NCBI RefSeq assembly: GCF_900604485.1
Contig: NZ_UWOP01000002.1
Span: 1 to 64,000, forward strand
Length of the DNA: 64,000 bases
Source of the DNA: Enterococcus mediterraneensis
GTDB taxonomy: Bacteria > Bacillota > Bacilli > Lactobacillales > Enterococcaceae
Direction of reading: 5' to 3'
Shown: piece by piece, positions 19,851 through 48,785 of the stretch
How the letters are laid out: every line of letters starts with the position of its first letter
Position numbering within the stretch: the stretch's first letter is position 1
Notes under the pieces: model-generated
Database searches by the model: none
Told to the model about the DNA's origin: nothing
What the model saw: only the letters and a program-made list of their open reading frames with translations
Program-made: the position numbers and the translations under genes

Positions 19851-21554
19851 TCACTCTTCTTTTTTCCAAAAATCAGTAATTGCACCTTTTGCGGAGCTGG
19901 AAACCAGATGCGCATATTTTCCTAGGACACCGCGAGAATATAGCGGTGGAATCACAAGTTCGGTTTGGCGTTTGGCAAGTTCAGCTTCTGGAACTTTCAT
20001 TGTAAGTTCTTTGGTATCTTGATCGATTACGACAATATCGCCGGTCTTCAGTAATGCGATCGGTCCGCCGTCTTGAGCTTCAGGCGCAATATGTCCAACC
20101 ACCAATCCATGAGTTCCTCCTGAGAAACGTCCATCTGTCAGTAATGCGACTGTTTCTCCTTGACCTTTTCCGACGATCATACTTGATAATGACAGCATTT
20201 CCGGCATGCCAGGTCCACCTTTTGGCCCGACATAACGAACAACAACTACGTCTCCATCGACAACTTCATCCGCAAGAACCGCATCGATCGCTTCTTCTTC
20301 ACTGTTGAATACTTTAGCCGGGCCTTCGTGGCGACGGACTTTTACGCCGGAAACTTTTGCGACCGCGCCTTCTGTAGCCAAATTACCGTGAAGGATGATC
20401 AGTGGACCATCTTTCCGTTTTGGATTTTCTAAAGGCATGATAACTTGTTGACCATCCTTCAATGAAGGGACATCCGCTAAGTTTTCTGCAATTGTTTTAC
20501 CGGTAACGGTCAAACAGTCGCCATGAAGATAGCCGTTTTCATAAAGATATTTCATTACGGCAGGCACACCGCCGACTTCGTACAAATCTTGGAAAACATA
20601 TTTTCCGCTTGGTTTCAAGTCTGCTAGATGTGGAACTTTTTCTTGGAAGTCATTGAAGTCATCCAACGTCAATTCTACGTTTGCTGCATGTGCCATTGCC
20701 ATCAAATGCAAGACAGCATTGGTGGAACCGCCCAGTGCCATAACGACAGTGATCGCATTTTCAAACGCTTTACGAGTCATGATGTCTTTTGGATAGATTC
20801 CTTTTTCCAATAATTTCATAACTGCTTCGCCGGCTTCGTCGACGTCACGTAATTTTGCTTCGGTCGTTGCAGGGTGAGAAGAGGAGCCTGGCAAACTCAT
20901 GCCCATCGCTTCGATCGCAGAAGCCATTGTGTTTGCAGTGTACATACCACCGCATCCGCCAGGTCCAGGACAGGCGTTGCATTCGATTCGGCGTACTTCT
21001 TCAGCGGTTATGTCATGGTGGTTCCATTGGCCGATCGCTTCAAATACCGAGACCAGATCAATATCTTTGCCGTCAAGATTTCCGGGAGCGATGGTGCCGC
21101 CATAAACAAAAATCGAAGGGATGTCTGTATTGGCGATCGCGATCATACAACCCGGCATATTTTTGTCGCAGCCGCCGATTGCTACAAAGGCATCACAGTT
21201 ATGTCCGCTGATGGCAGCTTCAACTGAATCAGCGATGATATCCCGTGAAGGCAATGAAAAACGCATTCCGGGAGTCCCCATTGCGATACCATCTGAAACA
21301 GTGATTGTGCCGAATTGAACAGGCCAACCGCCAGCTGTGATGACCCCTTTTTTGGCAAGTTTTCCTAGATCTGCTAAGTGAATGTTGCAAGGAGTATTTT
21401 CTGCCCAAGTACTGATGACACCAATGATTGGCTGCTCAAGTTCTTGGTCGCTCATCCCTGTTGCTCGTAATAGCGCGCGATTTGGTGATTTGACCATACT
21501 ATCATAAATATTACTTCTGATACGGATATCTTTTTTTGGCTGTTTGTCAGTCAT
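19851..21554 (-). CDS. ilvD: Dihydroxy-acid dehydratase, first copy
   Basis: 567 residues from the ATG at 21554 (GAAGGGAAG upstream). It dehydrates dihydroxy-isovalerate and dihydroxy-methylvalerate to the 2-oxo acids of valine and isoleucine synthesis, using an Fe-S cluster. Seen: cluster cysteine motif [13 protein letters not shown] (about 120), [18 protein letters not shown] (about 190) and [12 protein letters not shown] (about 455). [10 protein letters not shown] is at about 487. The CDKNMPG form matches the lactococcal-type lineage and differs from the second copy at 22442. It stands alone and diverges from the SufT-like gene. A sugar-acid dehydratase cannot be fully excluded. Confidence 0.88.
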
Positions 21555-21628
21555 AATATAACTTCCCTTCCAAAACAATCATTATTATTTCAGCGTTAAC
21601 TTTGAATAATTTAATTGCATTCTAACAC

Positions 21629-21643
21629 AATCTTTTCAAAATT
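21629..21643 (-). promoter_or_regulatory. Possible CodY box upstream of ilvD1
   Basis: The minus strand reads AATTTTGAAAAGATT, 3 mismatches by eye to AATTTTCWGAAAATT. It lies about 75 bases upstream of the start codon in AT-rich DNA, so chance is possible. Confidence 0.3.
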
Positions 21644-21737
21644 CTAGCCTTAAATAAAAAAAATCACAAAAAACTATTGAAAAAAAGAATGTTTCATGAA
21701 AAAATACACATAATCTTTTCTGAATGGAGGAAAAAGG

Positions 21738-22079
21738 ATGAGAGAAGATATCTTGGTAAATGATCGGGCAGCTGCGATCAGTGAACAATTGATTGAAAAA
21801 TTCGAAATGATCTATGATCCTGAAATAGGATTGGATATATATAATTTGGGTTTGTTGTATGAAGTTGACTTAGACGAAAATGGGCATTGCAAAGTGGTCA
21901 TCACTTTTACCTCGATGGGGTGCGGCTGCATGGCAACAGTCCCTGGTGAACTCGTGGCGGCACTTAAAGAAATCAAAGAAATCGAGGACGTAACTGTGGA
22001 GACAGTTTGGTCACCTGGGTGGAAAGTTACGCGCATCAGTCGTTTCGGCCGAATCTCTTTGGGGATCAGTCCAAAATAG
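21738..22079 (+). CDS. SufT/MIP18-family Fe-S assembly protein (DUF59)
   Basis: 113 residues. DPEIGLDIYNLGLLYEVDLD (residues about 31-50) is the conserved MIP18/PaaD-like signature. VVITFTSMGCGCMATVPGEL (about 57-76) holds the conserved cysteine, here as CGC. SufT-type members help mature Fe-S enzymes. It diverges from ilvD1 and lies upstream of ilvD2, so it sits between two genes for Fe-S dehydratases. AATGGAGGAAAAAGG precedes the ATG. A role in loading those enzymes is an inference from position. Confidence 0.85.
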   Translation: MREDILVNDRAAAISEQLIEKFEMIYDPEIGLDIYNLGLLYEVDLDENGHCKVVITFTSMGCGCMATVPGELVAALKEIKEIEDVTVETVWSPGWKVTRISRFGRISLGISPK

Positions 22080-22192
22080 AAAAAAATCCATTCTTGTTTA
22101 AATCTGGTCAACAAATAAATAATACGAAAAAATTTCTTTGGCACTTCAGTAAGTCATGAAGGACTAGGAACATCTATTTTCAAAACTATTAG

Positions 22193-22207
22193 AATATTTT
22201 GAAAATA
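22193..22207 (+). promoter_or_regulatory. Possible CodY box upstream of ilvD2
   Basis: AATATTTTGAAAATA, 3 mismatches by eye to AATTTTCWGAAAATT, directly upstream of the -35 at 22210. Confidence 0.4.
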
Positions 22208-22209
22208 TG

Positions 22210-22238
22210 TTGACATAGATAAACTAAAGGTATACAGT
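22210..22238 (+). promoter_or_regulatory. Promoter of the ilvD2 unit
   Basis: TTGACA at 22210-22215 with a TATACA/TACAGT -10 region at 22231-22238. Confidence 0.6.
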
Positions 22239-22281
22239 TAGTAAAAATTAAGTTCCACTTAAAACAAAAGGAGAAAAACCT

Positions 22282-22335
22282 ATGAAATTCAGACAATTGA
22301 AAGCAGTCATTTTAATTATTAGGTTTAGGACTTAG
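22282..22335 (+). CDS. Branched-chain leader peptide of ilvD2
   Basis: 17 codons: MKFRQLKAVILIIRFRT. AAAGGAG precedes the ATG. The run A-V-I-L-I-I (codons gca gtc att tta att att) contains five branched-chain codons in a row. The stop codon (TAG, 22333-22335) lies at the end of the first attenuator segment. The last residues (R-x-R-T) and the underlying AGGACTTA match the ilvB leader at 48538. Confidence 0.85.
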   Translation: MKFRQLKAVILIIRFRT

Positions 22336-22415
22336 AACGAGAACAACATCGTTTAAGTCCTGTTTGTGTTTGAATGGGACTTCATGAACCCCATTCATAT
22401 TGAGTGGGGTTTTTT
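22327..22415 (+). promoter_or_regulatory. Transcription attenuator of ilvD2 (five pairing segments)
   Basis: Segment 1 AGGACTTA (22327-22334) pairs with segment 2 TTAAGTCCT (22353-22361). Segment 2 can instead pair with GGACTT of segment 3 (22377-22382). Segment 3 AATGGG (22373-22378) can pair with CCCATT of segment 4. Segment 4 ACCCCATTC (22388-22396) pairs with segment 5 GAGTGGGGT (22402-22410), followed by T6: the terminator. A ribosome stalled at the Ile/Val codons leaves segment 1 free, so 1:2 forms, then 3:4, and transcription continues. A ribosome at the stop codon covers segment 1, so 2:3 and 4:5 form. Confidence 0.85.
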
Positions 22416-22441
22416 ATTTTAAAAAAATTGAGGTGTTTGTT

Positions 22442-24121
22442 TTGAGAAGTGATCAGATAAAAAAGGGTATTGATGCTGCGCCTGCAAGAAGTCTATTGTA
22501 CGCAACAGGACAAGTGAAAAATTATCATGATATGGAAAAACCGTTTATTGCTATTTGTAATTCTTATATTGATATCGTACCAGGGCATGTTCATTTACGG
22601 GAATTAGCTGATATTGCCAAAGAAGCAATTCGAGAAGCAGGAGGAATCCCTTTCGAATTCAATACGATCGGAGTTGATGACGGAATCGCAATGGGATATA
22701 TCGGGATGCGGTATTCATTGCCTAGCCGGGAATTGATTGCTGATTCAGCTGAGACAGTCATCAATGCTCATTGGTTTGACGGAGTTTTCTATATTCCAAA
22801 TTGCGACAAGATCACACCAGGAATGATCATGGCAGCAATGAGGACTAATGTTCCAGCGATCTTTTGTTCTGGAGGCCCAATGAAAGCAGGTGTTGATCCA
22901 AGAGGTCATCAAATAACGTTGTCGTCAATGTTTGAAGCAGTTGGAGCTTACAAAGAGGGTGAAATCTCTAGTGAAGAATTCCGCTTTATGGAACAAAACG
23001 CCTGTCCAACTTGCGGCTCTTGTGCTGGAATGTTCACCGCGAATTCTATGAATTGCTTGTTAGAAGTTTTAGGAATGGCACTTCCTTATAACGGAACGAC
23101 ATTAGCTGTCTCAGATGATCGGCGCGAACTCGTTCGACAGTCAGCGTTTAAACTTATGGATCTAGTAAAGAAACAAATAAAGCCGCGGGATATTGTCACA
23201 AAAGAAGCAATTGATGATGCTTTTGCCCTAGATATGGCAATGGGCGGATCTACAAATACGGTATTGCATACGTTGGCGATTGCCAATGAAGCGGGAATTG
23301 ACTATGATCTATCTTCAATCAATCAAATTGCAGAGCGTGTTCCATATATTTCTAAAATCGCTCCGTCTTCGGCCTATTCCATGCATGATGTCCATGAAGC
23401 AGGGGGAGTTCCGGCTATTATTAAAGAATTGCTTGATGTAGAGGGCGTCTTGCATCCAGATCGAATAACGGTAACCGGAAAAACATTGCGTGAAAATGTG
23501 TCTGAAGCGAAAATCAAAAATTATGACATTATCCATTCAAAAGAAAATCCCTATAGTTCAGTTGGCGGTTTATCCATTCTTTATGGGAATTTAGCACCAA
23601 ATGGTTCAGTTATTAAGGTTGGCGGAGTAGATCCATCAGTCAAAGTGTTCACTGGTAAGGCAATCTGTTTTGATTCTCATGATGAAGCAGTGGCGGCTAT
23701 CGATGATCATACAGTAGAAAAAGGACATGTTGTGGTGATTCGTTATGAAGGACCAAAAGGCGGGCCGGGTATGCCAGAGATGCTGGCGCCAACTTCTAGT
23801 ATCGTTGGAAGAGGTTTAGGAAAAGAAGTTGCTTTAATTACTGATGGTCGTTTTTCTGGTGCTACCAGAGGAATAGCGGTTGGCCATATTTCTCCTGAGG
23901 CCGCGGCAGGTGGTCCATTGGCGTTAGTGAAAGACGGAGATGAGATAACCATTGATCTTATCAATCGCTCACTGAATCTAAACGTTGATGAAAAAGAACT
24001 TGAACGTCGACAAAAAGAACTGCCAAAATTTGTATCAAAAGTAAAAAACGGCTGGTTAGGTCGCTACACAGCTCTTGTTACTTCAGCAAACACAGGTGGA
24101 ATAATGAAGTTACCAGAGTAA
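22442..24121 (+). CDS. ilvD: Dihydroxy-acid dehydratase, second copy (Bacillus/E. coli-type)
   Basis: 559 residues from a TTG start with TGAGGTG 6 bases upstream; the resulting N-terminus [19 protein letters not shown] aligns with Bacillus IlvD. Seen: [10 protein letters not shown] (about 120), [19 protein letters not shown] (about 190), [20 protein letters not shown] and [10 protein letters not shown]. It carries all the cysteines of the [4Fe-4S]-type family and catalyses the third common step of valine and isoleucine synthesis. It is the first gene after the attenuator, and the BASS transporter follows 21 bases later. It is probably the biosynthetic dehydratase under branched-chain control. 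Confidence 0.93.
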
Positions 24122-24142
24122 AAAAAGAGAGAAGGAAAAATA

Positions 24143-25108
24143 ATGAAAGTTTTAGAGTCTATGAGTCAATTTATTTCCAAATATTTTACAGGATTAGTAA
24201 TTTTGTTAGCTGCGTTATCATATTTGGATCCACAGCCAGGAGTAGGTATTGCACCTTACACATCCTATCTGCTGATGATCGTTCTATTTGGTATGGGGCT
24301 TAGTTTGCGGATAGAAGATTTTAAACGGATCGGGAAAAATCCGATACCGGTAGTTTTGGGGACCATTGCCCACTATGTCATCATGCCGGGTCTTGCATTT
24401 CTTTTAGTCCATCTATTTCACTTAGAAGGACCAGCGGCAGCCGGCGTTATTTTAGTGGGATCATGCCCTTCAGGAACTTCCTCGAATGTCATGGCTTACT
24501 TAGCAGGCGGCGATGTTGCTTTAGATGTTTCCATCGGTTTTCTATCAACATTATTAGCACCATTCATGATTCCATTGCTGGTTTCAACACTGGCTGGAAG
24601 TTACGTTGACGTTCCGGCAAGTCAAATGTTTATGAACACGGTAAAGATCGTCCTTATTCCAATTGTCCTTGGTGTAGCAGTTCATACTATTTTTGGTCAT
24701 AAAGTGGATAAAGTCAACCATGTGACCCCGTTGATCTCACAAACAGCGATTTTATTGATTATTGTAGCTGTTTTTTCCGCAAATCATTCTCAATTTACAA
24801 ATACTAAAACGTTACTAATTGTTCCTGTAGTGATGTTGCATAATCTATTAGGCTACTTATTGGGGTTTGTGTTTGCAAAAATCGTTCATTTGAACAAACC
24901 TCAACAAAAGGCGATTACCTTTGAAGTTGGTATGCAAGATTCTGCGTTAGGAGCGACACTGGCAATGAAGTTCTTTTCTCCTGAAGCAGCGATTGCTTCA
25001 ACCATTTTCTCCGTTTGGCATAATATATCTGGTTCGATCTTGTCCTCTTGGTGGCGTAATAAATCATTGAAAAAGGAACAAGTTGTTGTCCAACAAGTTA
25101 ATGTCTAA
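24143..25108 (+). CDS. BASS family transporter (bile acid:sodium symporter / PanS-like)
   Basis: 321 residues with nine or ten membrane segments. GVILVGSCPSGTSSNVMAYL at about 105-124 and FEVGMQDSALGATLA at about 264-278 are the crossed-helix motifs of the BASS fold. Family members move organic anions with sodium: bile acids, pyruvate, or ketopantoate (PanS). The gene follows ilvD2 in the same attenuated unit, so its substrate is likely tied to this pathway, for example 2-oxoisovalerate or ketopantoate. That substrate is an inference. GAGAAGG precedes the ATG. Confidence 0.85.
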   Translation: MKVLESMSQFISKYFTGLVILLAALSYLDPQPGVGIAPYTSYLLMIVLFGMGLSLRIEDFKRIGKNPIPVVLGTIAHYVIMPGLAFLLVHLFHLEGPAAAGVILVGSCPSGTSSNVMAYLAGGDVALDVSIGFLSTLLAPFMIPLLVSTLAGSYVDVPASQMFMNTVKIVLIPIVLGVAVHTIFGHKVDKVNHVTPLISQTAILLIIVAVFSANHSQFTNTKTLLIVPVVMLHNLLGYLLGFVFAKIVHLNKPQQKAITFEVGMQDSALGATLAMKFFSPEAAIASTIFSVWHNISGSILSSWWRNKSLKKEQVVVQQVNV

Positions 25109-25249
25109 AATGAATCATTGCAGATAAAGTAGAAAAAATTTTACTAGAGGAAAAATCAGCTTGTCCGAAATCGCTGGGTACAACAAAAGGGCGTGGAGAC
25201 AGTCTTTAGGTTTGTAAGGCTTATCTGGGCTTTGCGCGATACACTACCA

Positions 25250-25290
25250 AAAGTTCTCAAAAAACAGTTCTGTTTTTTGAGAACTTTTTC
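25250..25290 (+). terminator. Terminator of the ilvD2-BASS unit
   Basis: AAAAGTTCTCAAAAAACAG pairs with CTGTTTTTTGAGAACTTTT-like sequence after a 3-base loop, followed by TTTCTTTT. Confidence 0.85.
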
Positions 25291-25387
25291 TTTTCCTAGG
25301 GATAAAACAAAAAAATAGGATACAGCTTCTTTTACAAAATGTTTTTAGAAGTGCTGGCGAACTCTCAAAAAATTTTTGATGTAGTTA

Positions 25388-25416
25388 TTGACTTCCATAT
25401 AAATATCAGCTATTAT
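25388..25416 (+). promoter_or_regulatory. Promoter of leuABCD
   Basis: TTGACT (25388-25393), 17 bases, TATTAT (25411-25416). A CodY-like AATTATTTAAAAATT (25430-25444; 3 mismatches when read on the minus strand) lies just downstream, near or after the transcription start. Confidence 0.55.
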
Positions 25417-25474
25417 TTGTACAATTCAAAATTATTTAAAAATTCTGTCAATTTAATTGAAAGTTGGTATCTGC

Positions 25475-25513
25475 ATGAATACAATCCAAACGAAAACAGT
25501 CTTATTATTATGA
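25475..25513 (+). CDS. Leucine leader peptide of leuABCD
   Basis: 12 codons: MNTIQTKTVLLL, ending in gtc tta tta tta tga. Three consecutive leucine codons before the stop suit leucine-specific attenuation. The ribosome binding site is weak (GAAAG). An overlapping longer ORF in another frame (25339-25533) is judged spurious. Confidence 0.75.
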   Translation: MNTIQTKTVLLL

Positions 25514-25516
25514 TTG

Positions 25517-25600
25517 AGGGCTCGCCTAATTGAAGGAGAGTCCTGTTTCGCATTGTATGGAGCGGGATTTCAGCATCCCATTTCCATGGGATGCTTTTTT
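25517..25600 (+). promoter_or_regulatory. Transcription attenuator of leuABCD
   Basis: AGGGCTC (25517-25523) can pair with GAGTCCT (25538-25544). TTTCGC just after that can pair with GCGGGA (25562-25567). GGGAT can pair with ATCCC of the terminator's left arm. The terminator is GCATCCCAT (25573-25581) / ATGGGATGC (25586-25594) plus T6. The order of alternatives matches the ilvD2 and ilvB attenuators. Confidence 0.8.
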
Positions 25601-25632
25601 ATTACTATTGGACAGAAAAAGGAGGAAACAAA

Positions 25633-27135
25633 ATGAGAAAGATTCAATTTTTTGATACAACACTACGGGATGGAGAACAAACGCCGGGTGTAAATTTTGA
25701 TACAAAGGAAAAAGTTCAAATCGCAAAACAGTTGGAACGATGGGGGATCGATGTCATTGAAGCAGGTTTCCCAATCGCTTCGCAAGGAGATTTTGAAGCA
25801 GTAAAAGCCATCGCCGAAACAGTGACCAATATGACGGTTGCCGGCTTAGCCCGTTGCCGAAAACCAGATATCGATCGCGTAACTGAGGCACTGGTCGATG
25901 CGAAAGATCCCCAAATCCATGTATTTCTTGCTACAAGCCCGATCCATATGGAAGAAAAATTACACATGACAGAAGAGGAAGTGTTAGCTTCGATCGATGA
26001 ACATGTCCGCTATGCCCGCGAACGTTTTGAAAAAGTGCAGTTTTCGCCGGAGGATGCTACCCGAAGTGAGAAAGCGTTCTTGTTAAAAGCTGTTCAGACA
26101 GCTGTTCGTGCCGGTGCGACGATCATCAATATTCCCGACACGGTGGGTTATTCCAATCCTACTGAGTACGGGGCACTGATTCGCTTTTTGATCGATGGTG
26201 TAGCTGATCCGTCCATTATTTTTTCTTCCCATTGTCATGACGATCTGGGAATGGCGGCAGCAAACGCATTGGCTGCGATAGAAGCAGGTGCCAATCGTGT
26301 GGAAGGAACGATCAATGGAATCGGCGAGCGGGCAGGAAACACACCTTTGGAAGAGATTGCTTTGAGTTTAGCTACCCGTAAAGATTTTTACCAAGCGGAA
26401 TCACAAATCACCTTTAAAGAAACCAAGCGGACGAGTGATCTGGTGGCACGTTTGTCTGGGGTAAGCGTACCTCGGAATAAAGCGATCGTGGGAGCAAATG
26501 CCTTTGCCCATGAATCAGGCATCCATCAAGATGGGGTACTAAAAAATCCCGGCACCTACGAAATCATCACTCCGACATTCGTTGGCGTAGCAAATAATTC
26601 TTTGCCCCTTGGAAAACTTTCCGGACGTCATGCCTTTGCAGAAAAAATGAAAGATCTTGGTTTTAATTTCTCCGACGAGGAACTGCAGCCGATTTTTAAA
26701 AAGTTCAAAGACTTAGCTGATAAGAAAAAAGAAATCAATGATGATGATTTATTGGCATTGGTTGCCAGCCGCAAAGCAGCACCTTGCCGCTTGACCGGTC
26801 TGCGAGTCAGTTATTCGTTGGAAGGGGTAGAGGCAACTGTCACGATCACAGAAAATGAAAAATCTTTTTCAGAAACCGTACAAGGATCAGGAAGTATTCA
26901 AGCAATCTATCAAGCAATCGATCAATTGCTACCTACGACAACCATTCTGGAGGATTATCAAATCAAGAGCATCACAGCAGGAGAAGATGCTCAGGCTGAA
27001 GTATATGTGGCACTGATCGATCAAGAGGGACGAATCGTTCATGGGACAGGGATCGATTTTGATGTATTGCATGCTTCTGCCAAAGCTTATTTAGAAGCAA
27101 AGAGTCGGGTAAAAAGCCGGGGTGAAAACAAGTGA
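25633..27135 (+). CDS. leuA: 2-Isopropylmalate synthase
   Basis: 500 residues from the ATG at 25633 (AAGGAGGAAACAAA upstream). It condenses 2-oxoisovalerate with acetyl-CoA, the committed step of leucine synthesis. Seen: [17 protein letters not shown] (residues about 6-22), metal-binding HCHDDLGMA (about 204-212), [13 protein letters not shown] and HESGIHQDG (about 295-303). A C-terminal LeuA dimer/regulatory domain (about 385-495) is the usual site of leucine feedback. Its stop overlaps the leuB start (GTGA), so the genes are coupled. Confidence 0.97.
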
Positions 27136-48419: not shown

Positions 48420-48434
48420 AATTTTCAGAATTTT
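48420..48434 (+). promoter_or_regulatory. CodY-like box upstream of ilvB
   Basis: AATTTTCAGAATTTT, 2 mismatches to AATTTTCWGAAAATT, 14 bases before the -35 box. CodY represses branched-chain synthesis in many Firmicutes when Ile/Leu/Val are plentiful. Confidence 0.6.
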
Positions 48435-48537: not shown

Positions 48538-48588
48538 ATGGTTAAGAATTTTGCAAACATCGTCATTGTTTTACGATCGAGGACTTAA
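48538..48588 (+). CDS. Branched-chain leader peptide of ilvBNCA
   Basis: 16 codons: MVKNFANIVIVLRSRT. Codons atc gtc att gtt tta give I-V-I-V-L in a row. TTGGAG lies 8-10 bases upstream. The stop (TAA, 48586-48588) ends inside attenuator segment 1. Its C-terminal R-S-R-T resembles the R-F-R-T of the ilvD2 leader. Confidence 0.85.
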   Translation: MVKNFANIVIVLRSRT

Positions 48589-48684
48589 GACATTGCGCTA
48601 AACGCTAATGTTTAAGTCCTGTTTGTCTTAACCAAATGGGATTTAAGACATCCCATTAAATTTTAATGGGGTGTCTTTTTTTTA
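48580..48684 (+). promoter_or_regulatory. Transcription attenuator of ilvBNCA
   Basis: Segment 1 AGGACTTAAGACATT pairs with segment 2 AATGTTTAAGTCCT (48607-48620). Segment 2 TTAAGTCC can pair instead with GGATTTAA of segment 3. Segment 3 AATGGGAT (48635-48642) pairs with ATCCCATT (48650-48657). The terminator is AGACATCCCATT (48646-48657) / AATGGGGTGTCT (48665-48676) with T8. The order of alternatives is the same as for ilvD2. Confidence 0.88.
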
Positions 48685-48785
48685 AGAAGAATGGAGTGGA
48701 TATATGAGAACAAATAAAAACAAAATGAGATTCTTCGATACATCAACTCAATTTTGCAACAAAATTTATGGAAGGAGGATAGCCA

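Follow-up and report, generated by a model that had tools for sequence, protein, structure and literature searches.

In the trp and his attenuators of enterobacteria, the position of a ribosome on a leader open reading frame (ORF) selects one of several mutually exclusive hairpins, and a stalled ribosome covers segment 1, which favours the antiterminator. For the branched-chain amino acids (BCAAs), the Rfam family leu-phe_leader presumably represents the leu/ilv leaders of Lactococcus and Streptococcus. Leader peptides of BCAA genes have been predicted in both of these genera (cited in PMC5794164), and leader-peptide control of such genes there is not new. The closest described system is Rli60 of Listeria monocytogenes (RF02414), an experimentally supported ribosome-mediated attenuator. 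PMC5864092 gives Rli60 four segments, with energies of −10.3 kcal/mol for the antiterminator and −17.1 kcal/mol for the terminator, and reports less ilvD transcript in mutants of the leader start codon and of the ribosome-binding site. In Staphylococcus aureus, ilvD is preceded by an attenuator with a 26-amino-acid Leu/Ile peptide and a different antiterminator model (PMC5794164). The ilvD motif of PMC8632094, confined to Veillonella, was considered and set aside as something else.

Here, we analyse the leader of ilvD2 in a stretch of 64,000 nucleotides from Enterococcus mediterraneensis (the window). It shares with Rli60 the ilvD gene downstream, a short BCAA-rich leader peptide and a U-tailed terminator, and with the S. 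aureus attenuator the BCAA-rich leader peptide before ilvD (PMC5794164). Unlike in the trp and his attenuators, a stalled ribosome would leave segment 1 free. The region is very probably a ribosome-mediated transcription attenuator for ilvD that is homologous to Rli60. Its leader ORF, two exclusive pairing sets, terminator and long-range 5′ pairing are established by the sequence and by comparison.

The ilvD2 leader and its sister attenuators

All features of the leader lie on the forward strand. The leader ORF, MKFRQLKAVILIIRFRT (17 codons, 22282–22335), was read directly; it starts with the ATG at 22282 behind a GGAG ribosome-binding site (22270–22273), carries the sensor codons V-I-L-I-I as codons 9–13 (22306–22320) and ends with a TAG stop codon (22333–22335) inside segment 1 (22327–22340). 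Segment 2 (22349–22361) is joined to segment 3 (22372–22382) by a linker, L (22362–22375), the final four bases of which also belong to segment 3. Segments 4 (22387–22396) and 5 (22402–22411) form, together with the T-run 22410–22420, the terminator. The early codons (segment 0, 22287–22295) have a possible partner at 22367–22375 according to group swap tests, and folding and swap tests pair an upstream arm, U (22249–22269), with 22362–22383, i.e. with linker L and segment 3. A promoter-like TTGACA-17-TACAGT at 22210–22238 is a consensus match only, such sites being as frequent in 21500–25700 as expected (12 found, 12.3 expected). The gene itself, identified by Pfam as a dihydroxy-acid dehydratase (ilvD2, 22442–24121), has a TTG start at 22442 with GAGGTG upstream (22430–22435). 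Direct reading agrees with the earlier note, which had described a 17-codon ORF with V-I-L-I-I ahead of a TTG-started ilvD and had placed the stop codon within segment 1. That note mentions neither of the two sister attenuators, does not connect the leader with Rli60 and contains no pairing between segment 3 and the 5′ part of the leader.

When 22080–22441 was shuffled 3000 times with dinucleotides preserved, 16 of the shuffles contained a short ORF with a run of at least five I/L/V residues and a ribosome-site-like motif; the whole window holds five on the forward and one on the reverse strand, two of which are the ilvD and ilvB leaders. The fold of 22283–22420 has a z-score of −4.57, and its stability was equalled in none of 200 shuffles. 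Of the single helices of the ilvD leader, 1:2, 3:4 and 4:5 were equalled in 2, 5 and 0 of 1000 shuffles, respectively, and the terminator 4:5 is the most stable. Helices 2:3 (91 of 1000) and 0:L (84 of 1000) both fall within the shuffles, so that the support for 2:3 comes from the comparison across leaders.

Whole sister attenuators of the same type were found at 25475–25602, before leuA, and at 48538–48684, before ilvB. A BLAST self-search of the source genome gave a match at 48610–48696 (E = 1.4e-5) ahead of ilvB, where the leader MVKNFANIVIVLRSRT (48538–48588, forward strand), with I-V-I-V-L, was read directly and attenuator segments 1–5 span 48580–48675 (forward strand). In this copy the early codons 48540–48547 pair with 48626–48633 (0:L; none of 1000 shuffles as good), and the U pairing is absent (331 of 1000 shuffles as good). 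The leuA copy was found by reading the leuA region; its leader MNTIQTKTVLLL (25475–25513, forward strand), with V-L-L-L, is without a clear ribosome-binding site, and its attenuator segments occupy 25518–25595 (forward strand), with the terminator at 25572–25595. Helices 2:3 and 3:4 of the leuA copy are not above shuffles (240 and 363 of 1000, respectively). A covariance model built from the three window copies and five relatives (R1) finds three places in the source genome at E up to 0.1 and gives the leuA copy 62.7 bits, although this sequence is part of the R1 training set.

Conservation of the pairings and kinship with Rli60

At E up to 0.1, R1 matched 72 of the 105 genomes of the window's family, in 11 of its 17 genera. 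IlvC (1e-30) was missing from all 33 unmatched genomes, four of which are less than 90% complete, and was present in all four matched controls; the element is thus absent where the pathway is absent. Two R1 matches, L120 (E = 9.2e-4) and L123, are without a leader and were rejected as chance matches. Nine weak R1 places (E = 0.03–0.08) lay outside the set that was read, and some of them may be leuA leaders like L121, L122 and L124. In these three leuA leaders 1:2 and the terminator are kept and the GGGAT-type segment 3 is seemingly missing, possibly a simpler version of the element.

The pairings were assessed in an alignment made by MAFFT without structure (A4), which covers leaders found ahead of ilvD, ilvB and ridA and holds 79 of the 84 available (78 of them distinct); L019, L025, L036, L087 and L093 were left out as copies or near-copies. 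Pairing is possible in 94.2% of the alignment cells for the set 1:2 + 3:4 and in 96.2% for the set 2:3 + 4:5, compared with 26–55% in controls slid by 1–3 columns, and the single helices 1:2 and 2:3 reach 95.5 and 96.2%, respectively. Double-sided changes were found in five pairs of the first set (three in 1:2 and two in 3:4) and in eight of the second; 4:5 has the most of all helices (seven of nine pairs), and 2:3 has just one of seven, with GC in 59 leaders, AU in five and a broken pair in 14. The pairing measures were matched by shuffles in 0 to 7 of 500 cases; given the relatedness of the sequences, these figures should not be taken as probabilities. Mutually exclusive pairings, the mark of a ribosome-mediated attenuator, have thus been kept in evolution. 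The five segments, two exclusive pairings and U-tailed terminator described in the earlier note are present, and all four helices are kept in the 79 aligned leaders. A lack of conservation of the leader codons or pairings, which the note had set against its own reading, was looked for across relatives and not found.

That CodY alone controls these genes and the leader is a relic is very improbable. There are CodY-like boxes near both promoters, at 22193–22207 (three mismatches) and 48420–48434 (two mismatches); however, the window has no excess of such boxes over chance (20 against an expected 16.3), and both the leader and its pairings are conserved over many genera, which does not suit a relic.

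Rfam gave no match in the window at gathering score. The Rli60 model RF02414 scores 39.4 bits on the element against a cut-off of 60 (E = 0.049), with the full model (1–191) aligned to 22242–22387; this match, like that at L125 (1501–1683), ends where segment 4 begins and leaves out the terminator hairpin 4:5. Over the order, RF02414 matched 53 of 395 genomes at E up to 0.001, 23 of them above the cut-off. Fourteen of the 53 belong to the window's family, all below the cut-off, and the source genome is unmatched at this threshold. A second covariance model (R2), built from A4 only and therefore trained without Listeria, matched 183 of the 395 genomes at E up to 0.01 (about four chance genomes expected) in 45 of 80 genera; the training family accounts for 46 of these genomes. 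The R2 matches include RF02414's own places of 163–185 bits; in genome G252, for example, the R2 match at 2028361–2028485 (82.9 bits) overlaps the RF02414 match at 2028266–2028448. Since a model made from the family only finds Rli60 at its own locus, we take the element to be an Rli60 homologue and not a new kind of regulation. The window has the features of Rli60: ilvD is preceded by a short leader peptide that contains BCAA codons, and by a terminator. Conversely, the Rli60 loci carry the leader MKTTKSVITILLL (13 amino acids, as in PMC5864092), and the same five segments and 5′ arm are visible in their sequences, whereas Rli60 was published with four segments; the mapping between the two descriptions is unsure. 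Unlike Rli60, the element of the window's family also precedes ilvB, leuA and ridA, with other codons.

Outside the family, 40 R2 places were read, and the gene behind was recognized in all but eight. Among the leaders of other families are some ahead of ilvD, such as VITILLL, and others with a pure-Ile run; SBF-family transporter genes follow seven of the latter. Over the class, R2 matched 42 of 299 genomes, 19 of them in one Staphylococcus-like genus with leaders such as NILVILLC; RF02414 is above its cut-off in two of three Staphylococcus-like loci scanned. Streptococcus-like genomes gave a weaker R2 match, and the three that were read have a Leu-run leader before leuA. The predicted leu/ilv leaders of Lactococcus and Streptococcus cited in PMC5794164 likewise point to leader-peptide control. 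Six of seven further loci that were read have such a leader and gene. The match L274 (E = 4.1e-5) appears to be due to chance, and matches near such E values include false ones. In a set of 23 loci, R2 gave no match in 15, including six Streptococcus ilvB loci, Companilactobacillus and Convivina. The attenuator named after its Listeria example seems to serve lactic acid bacteria widely as a BCAA switch.

A T-box riboswitch would be the usual device for this pathway in Bacillota, and two Bacillus loci (L200 and L203), both without an R2 match, do have one ahead of ilvB. In the window, however, no T-box (RF00230) was found at gathering score, nor in 18000–56000 at E up to 5; at this sensitivity the leader also showed no specifier loop, and we give this explanation practically no weight. 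When 39 loci were scanned with Rfam, the only families above cut-off were rli60, T-box and tRNA, and no T-box was seen beside an attenuator in these loci.

Ribosome position and the long-range pairing

The position of the sensor codons relative to segment 1 was compared in 82 leaders (81 from the family and one of the Listeria type, with L071 left out), which were also used for folding. In 72 of the 82, a distance of 7 nt separates the last sensor codon from segment 1 downstream, a constancy that may partly stem from the choice of matches, as the search model includes the run. In every one of the 82, the stop codon lies close to the beginning of segment 1, at most 7 nt before and 5 nt after it. 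The ilvD leader was folded under constraint over the region that begins 20 nt upstream of the ATG and ends with segment 4; a ribosome footprint from −13 to +15 around the P site was assumed, and pairing was expressed as an index (pair probabilities summed along the best diagonal and divided by 5, so that values above 1 are possible). With this short 5′ end, a ribosome on the sensor codons gave indices of 1.20 for 1:2 and 1.04 for 3:4, a ribosome at the stop codon gave 0 for 1:2, 0.97 for 2:3 and 0.02 for 3:4, and the empty leader gave 1.19 for 1:2 and 1.07 for 3:4. Over the 82 leaders the mean 3:4 index was 0.61 when stalled, 0.52 when empty and 0.32 at the stop codon, so that the empty and stalled states barely differ, and the mean 2:3 index at the stop codon was only 0.27; in several leaders the state change is absent or 3:4 is nearly absent. 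The attenuator reading of the earlier note draws support from these short-5′-end folds, the 7-nt spacing, the pair conservation and the occurrence of the element in the 72 family genomes.

Under a shortage of Ile, Val or Leu, the ribosome would stall on codons 9–13 and leave segment 1 free; helices 1:2 and 3:4 would then form and RNA polymerase would continue into ilvD. With plentiful amino acids, the ribosome would reach the stop codon in segment 1 and block 1:2, so that 2:3 could form and 4:5 would terminate transcription. The switching step itself we infer. Taken bare, the five segments would imply read-through of an untranslated leader, and folding with the short 5′ end (20 nt before the ATG) still favours this at the ilvD locus; the idea was rejected as it conflicts with the Listeria start-codon and ribosome-binding-site mutants (PMC5864092). 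The four-segment logic of Rli60 avoids the conflict differently, with a terminator that simply wins when the leader is untranslated and with no regulatory part for 1:2 and 2:3. It is backed by the segments, helix energies and start-codon and ribosome-binding-site mutants of PMC5864092, and in the window's ilvD leader, likewise, no helix is more stable than the terminator. It leaves unexplained, however, why 1:2 and 2:3 are conserved at 95.5 and 96.2% and why the stop codon is placed near segment 1 in 82 of 82 leaders, and we regard it as unlikely.

A further pairing bears on the untranslated state. The constrained folds first showed the 5′ part of the leader pairing with the stretch after segment 2. 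An unbiased map was calculated with 14-base windows, comparing native with swapped partners in 13 genus-by-gene groups of at most three sequences each from the 79. It shows one antidiagonal, between −24 to +14 around the ATG and the first 34 bases after segment 2, in up to 12 of the 13 groups; in the family the pairing covers the ribosome-binding site and the start codon. There is also a weaker off-diagonal patch between the upstream region and about 44–58 bases after segment 2 (10–11 of 13 groups), for which the likeness of segments 3 and 5 offers a partial explanation. For the whole region (−45 to +24 against 32 bases) native pairing exceeded swapped pairing in all 13 groups (80 sequences). 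The ilvD arm (22249–22269 with 22362–22383) amounts to −15.0 kcal/mol and was equalled in nine of 1000 shuffles, for a region that was chosen after folding. In another set of group swap tests U was opposed by one of the 13 groups, the window ilvB (−8.4 native, −12.3 swapped), and 0:L also by one, ridA (−7.3 native, −7.4 swapped). For 0:L a control by synonymous recoding was weak (mean z of −1.26, native in the best 5% for 8 of 59), and in 18 leuA leaders 0:L is absent (native −4.4, permuted −5.2; 1996 of 2000 permutations reached at least the native value).

In 15 of 15 Listeria-type loci, an arm of ten bases, the first of them 26 nt upstream of the ATG, pairs with ten bases of linker L and segment 3: CCATTTAACG with CGTTAAATGG in eleven loci, CCATTTAATG with CATTAAATGG, changed on both sides, in L136, and a pairing with one G–U pair in the other three. 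In the Staphylococcus-like loci nine arm pairs were found in six of seven and six pairs in the seventh. Both of these arm patterns were defined after the Listeria-type sequences had been inspected. In L152 (TTCAGCCAA opposite TTGGCTGAA) and L154 (TCAACCAAAC opposite GTTTGGTTGA) the arm lies within the leader ORF. Mapping of 34 groups from other families gave a patchy picture, with 15–25 of the 34 in the best cells; here the start codons of eight loci had been reset by hand to a better ribosome site, and three leuA loci, L168 and three of the seven Staphylococcus-like loci were left out.

In an untranslated leader the 5′ part would bind linker L and segment 3, and 4:5 would then terminate; in most family groups the arm would also hide the ribosome site. 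Read-through would then require that translation of the leader has begun and has stalled. Such an arm fits the lowered ilvD transcript of the Listeria start-codon and ribosome-binding-site mutants (PMC5864092) and offers a testable reason why untranslated leaders stay shut despite a free segment 1. Equilibrium folding from the predicted transcription start, however, gave the same result for each of the three ribosome states, with both 4:5 and the U pairing formed; as it fails to separate them, the switch must be kinetic or need a second ribosome. How segment 3 escapes from the arm during a stall is a guess: through a second, initiating ribosome or because the long-range pairing is slow. The chances are about even that the leader is a three-state switch in which the arm acts as a second guard, general to the Lactobacillales/Staphylococcus-like family including Rli60, with a register that shifts and sensor codons that are swapped by gene. 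An arm that acts on initiation of leader translation only, with no hiding of segment 3, would account for a family map that covers the ribosome-binding site and start codon. This alternative is somewhat improbable, as the pairing extends into segment 3, the ilvD arm (22249–22269) lies upstream of the ribosome-binding site and the Listeria-type arm begins 26 nt before the ATG in all 15 loci. The arm is new here and apparently undescribed, and its function as a second guard is inferred from these comparisons; literature searches, which covered few subscription papers, returned no report of an Enterococcus ilv/leu leader peptide, a ridA leader or such a 5′ arm.

Sensor codons and neighbouring genes

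Sensor codons were counted in the longest run of I, L and V, where this has three or more residues. The 66 ilvD leaders contain a mixture (176 Ile, 89 Val and 133 Leu), as do the six ilvB leaders (15 Ile, seven Val and 12 Leu). In the 26 leuA leaders 92 of 100 sensor codons are for Leu, with four each for Val and Ile, and in 11 of 12 ridA leaders 37 of 38 are for Ile and one is for Val, the twelfth (L095) having a run of two. The sensor codons thus match the pathway downstream and change with the gene, as is characteristic of attenuators. One RNA frame with varied sensor codons before ilvD, ilvB, leuA, ridA and SBF genes amounts to a natural experiment, and the codons hint at the roles of the ridA and SBF-family transporter genes.

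The nearly pure Ile leaders (MNATTTRQMIIIIRLRT and kin) precede a RidA-type gene in twelve loci of one genus (L083, L084, L086–L089 and L092–L097). The gene was recognized by eye in all twelve loci and by Pfam (PF01042) in one, and it is followed by a GntR-like-looking gene in three or more of them. RidA is associated with isoleucine synthesis, at its threonine dehydratase step. A pure-Ile sensor fits this link and suggests that RidA is under Ile control.

In the window, an SBF-family (bile acid:Na symporter) gene at 24143–25108 lies between ilvD2 and the leu genes. Distant relatives of it (34–38% identity) have an Ile-run attenuator of their own in seven loci of other families (L150, L152, L164, L171 and L175–L177), which makes it possible that the SBF transporter may carry an acid of the isoleucine pathway. 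On the other side of the leader the window holds a second, different ilvD-type dehydratase gene, divergent from ilvD2 (19851–21578 on the reverse strand, against 22442–24121 on the forward strand), and a gene for an Fe–S assembly protein (PF01883) at 21738–22079 between the two. The BCAA genes seen are on the second contig (293,065 bases) of the three-contig assembly.
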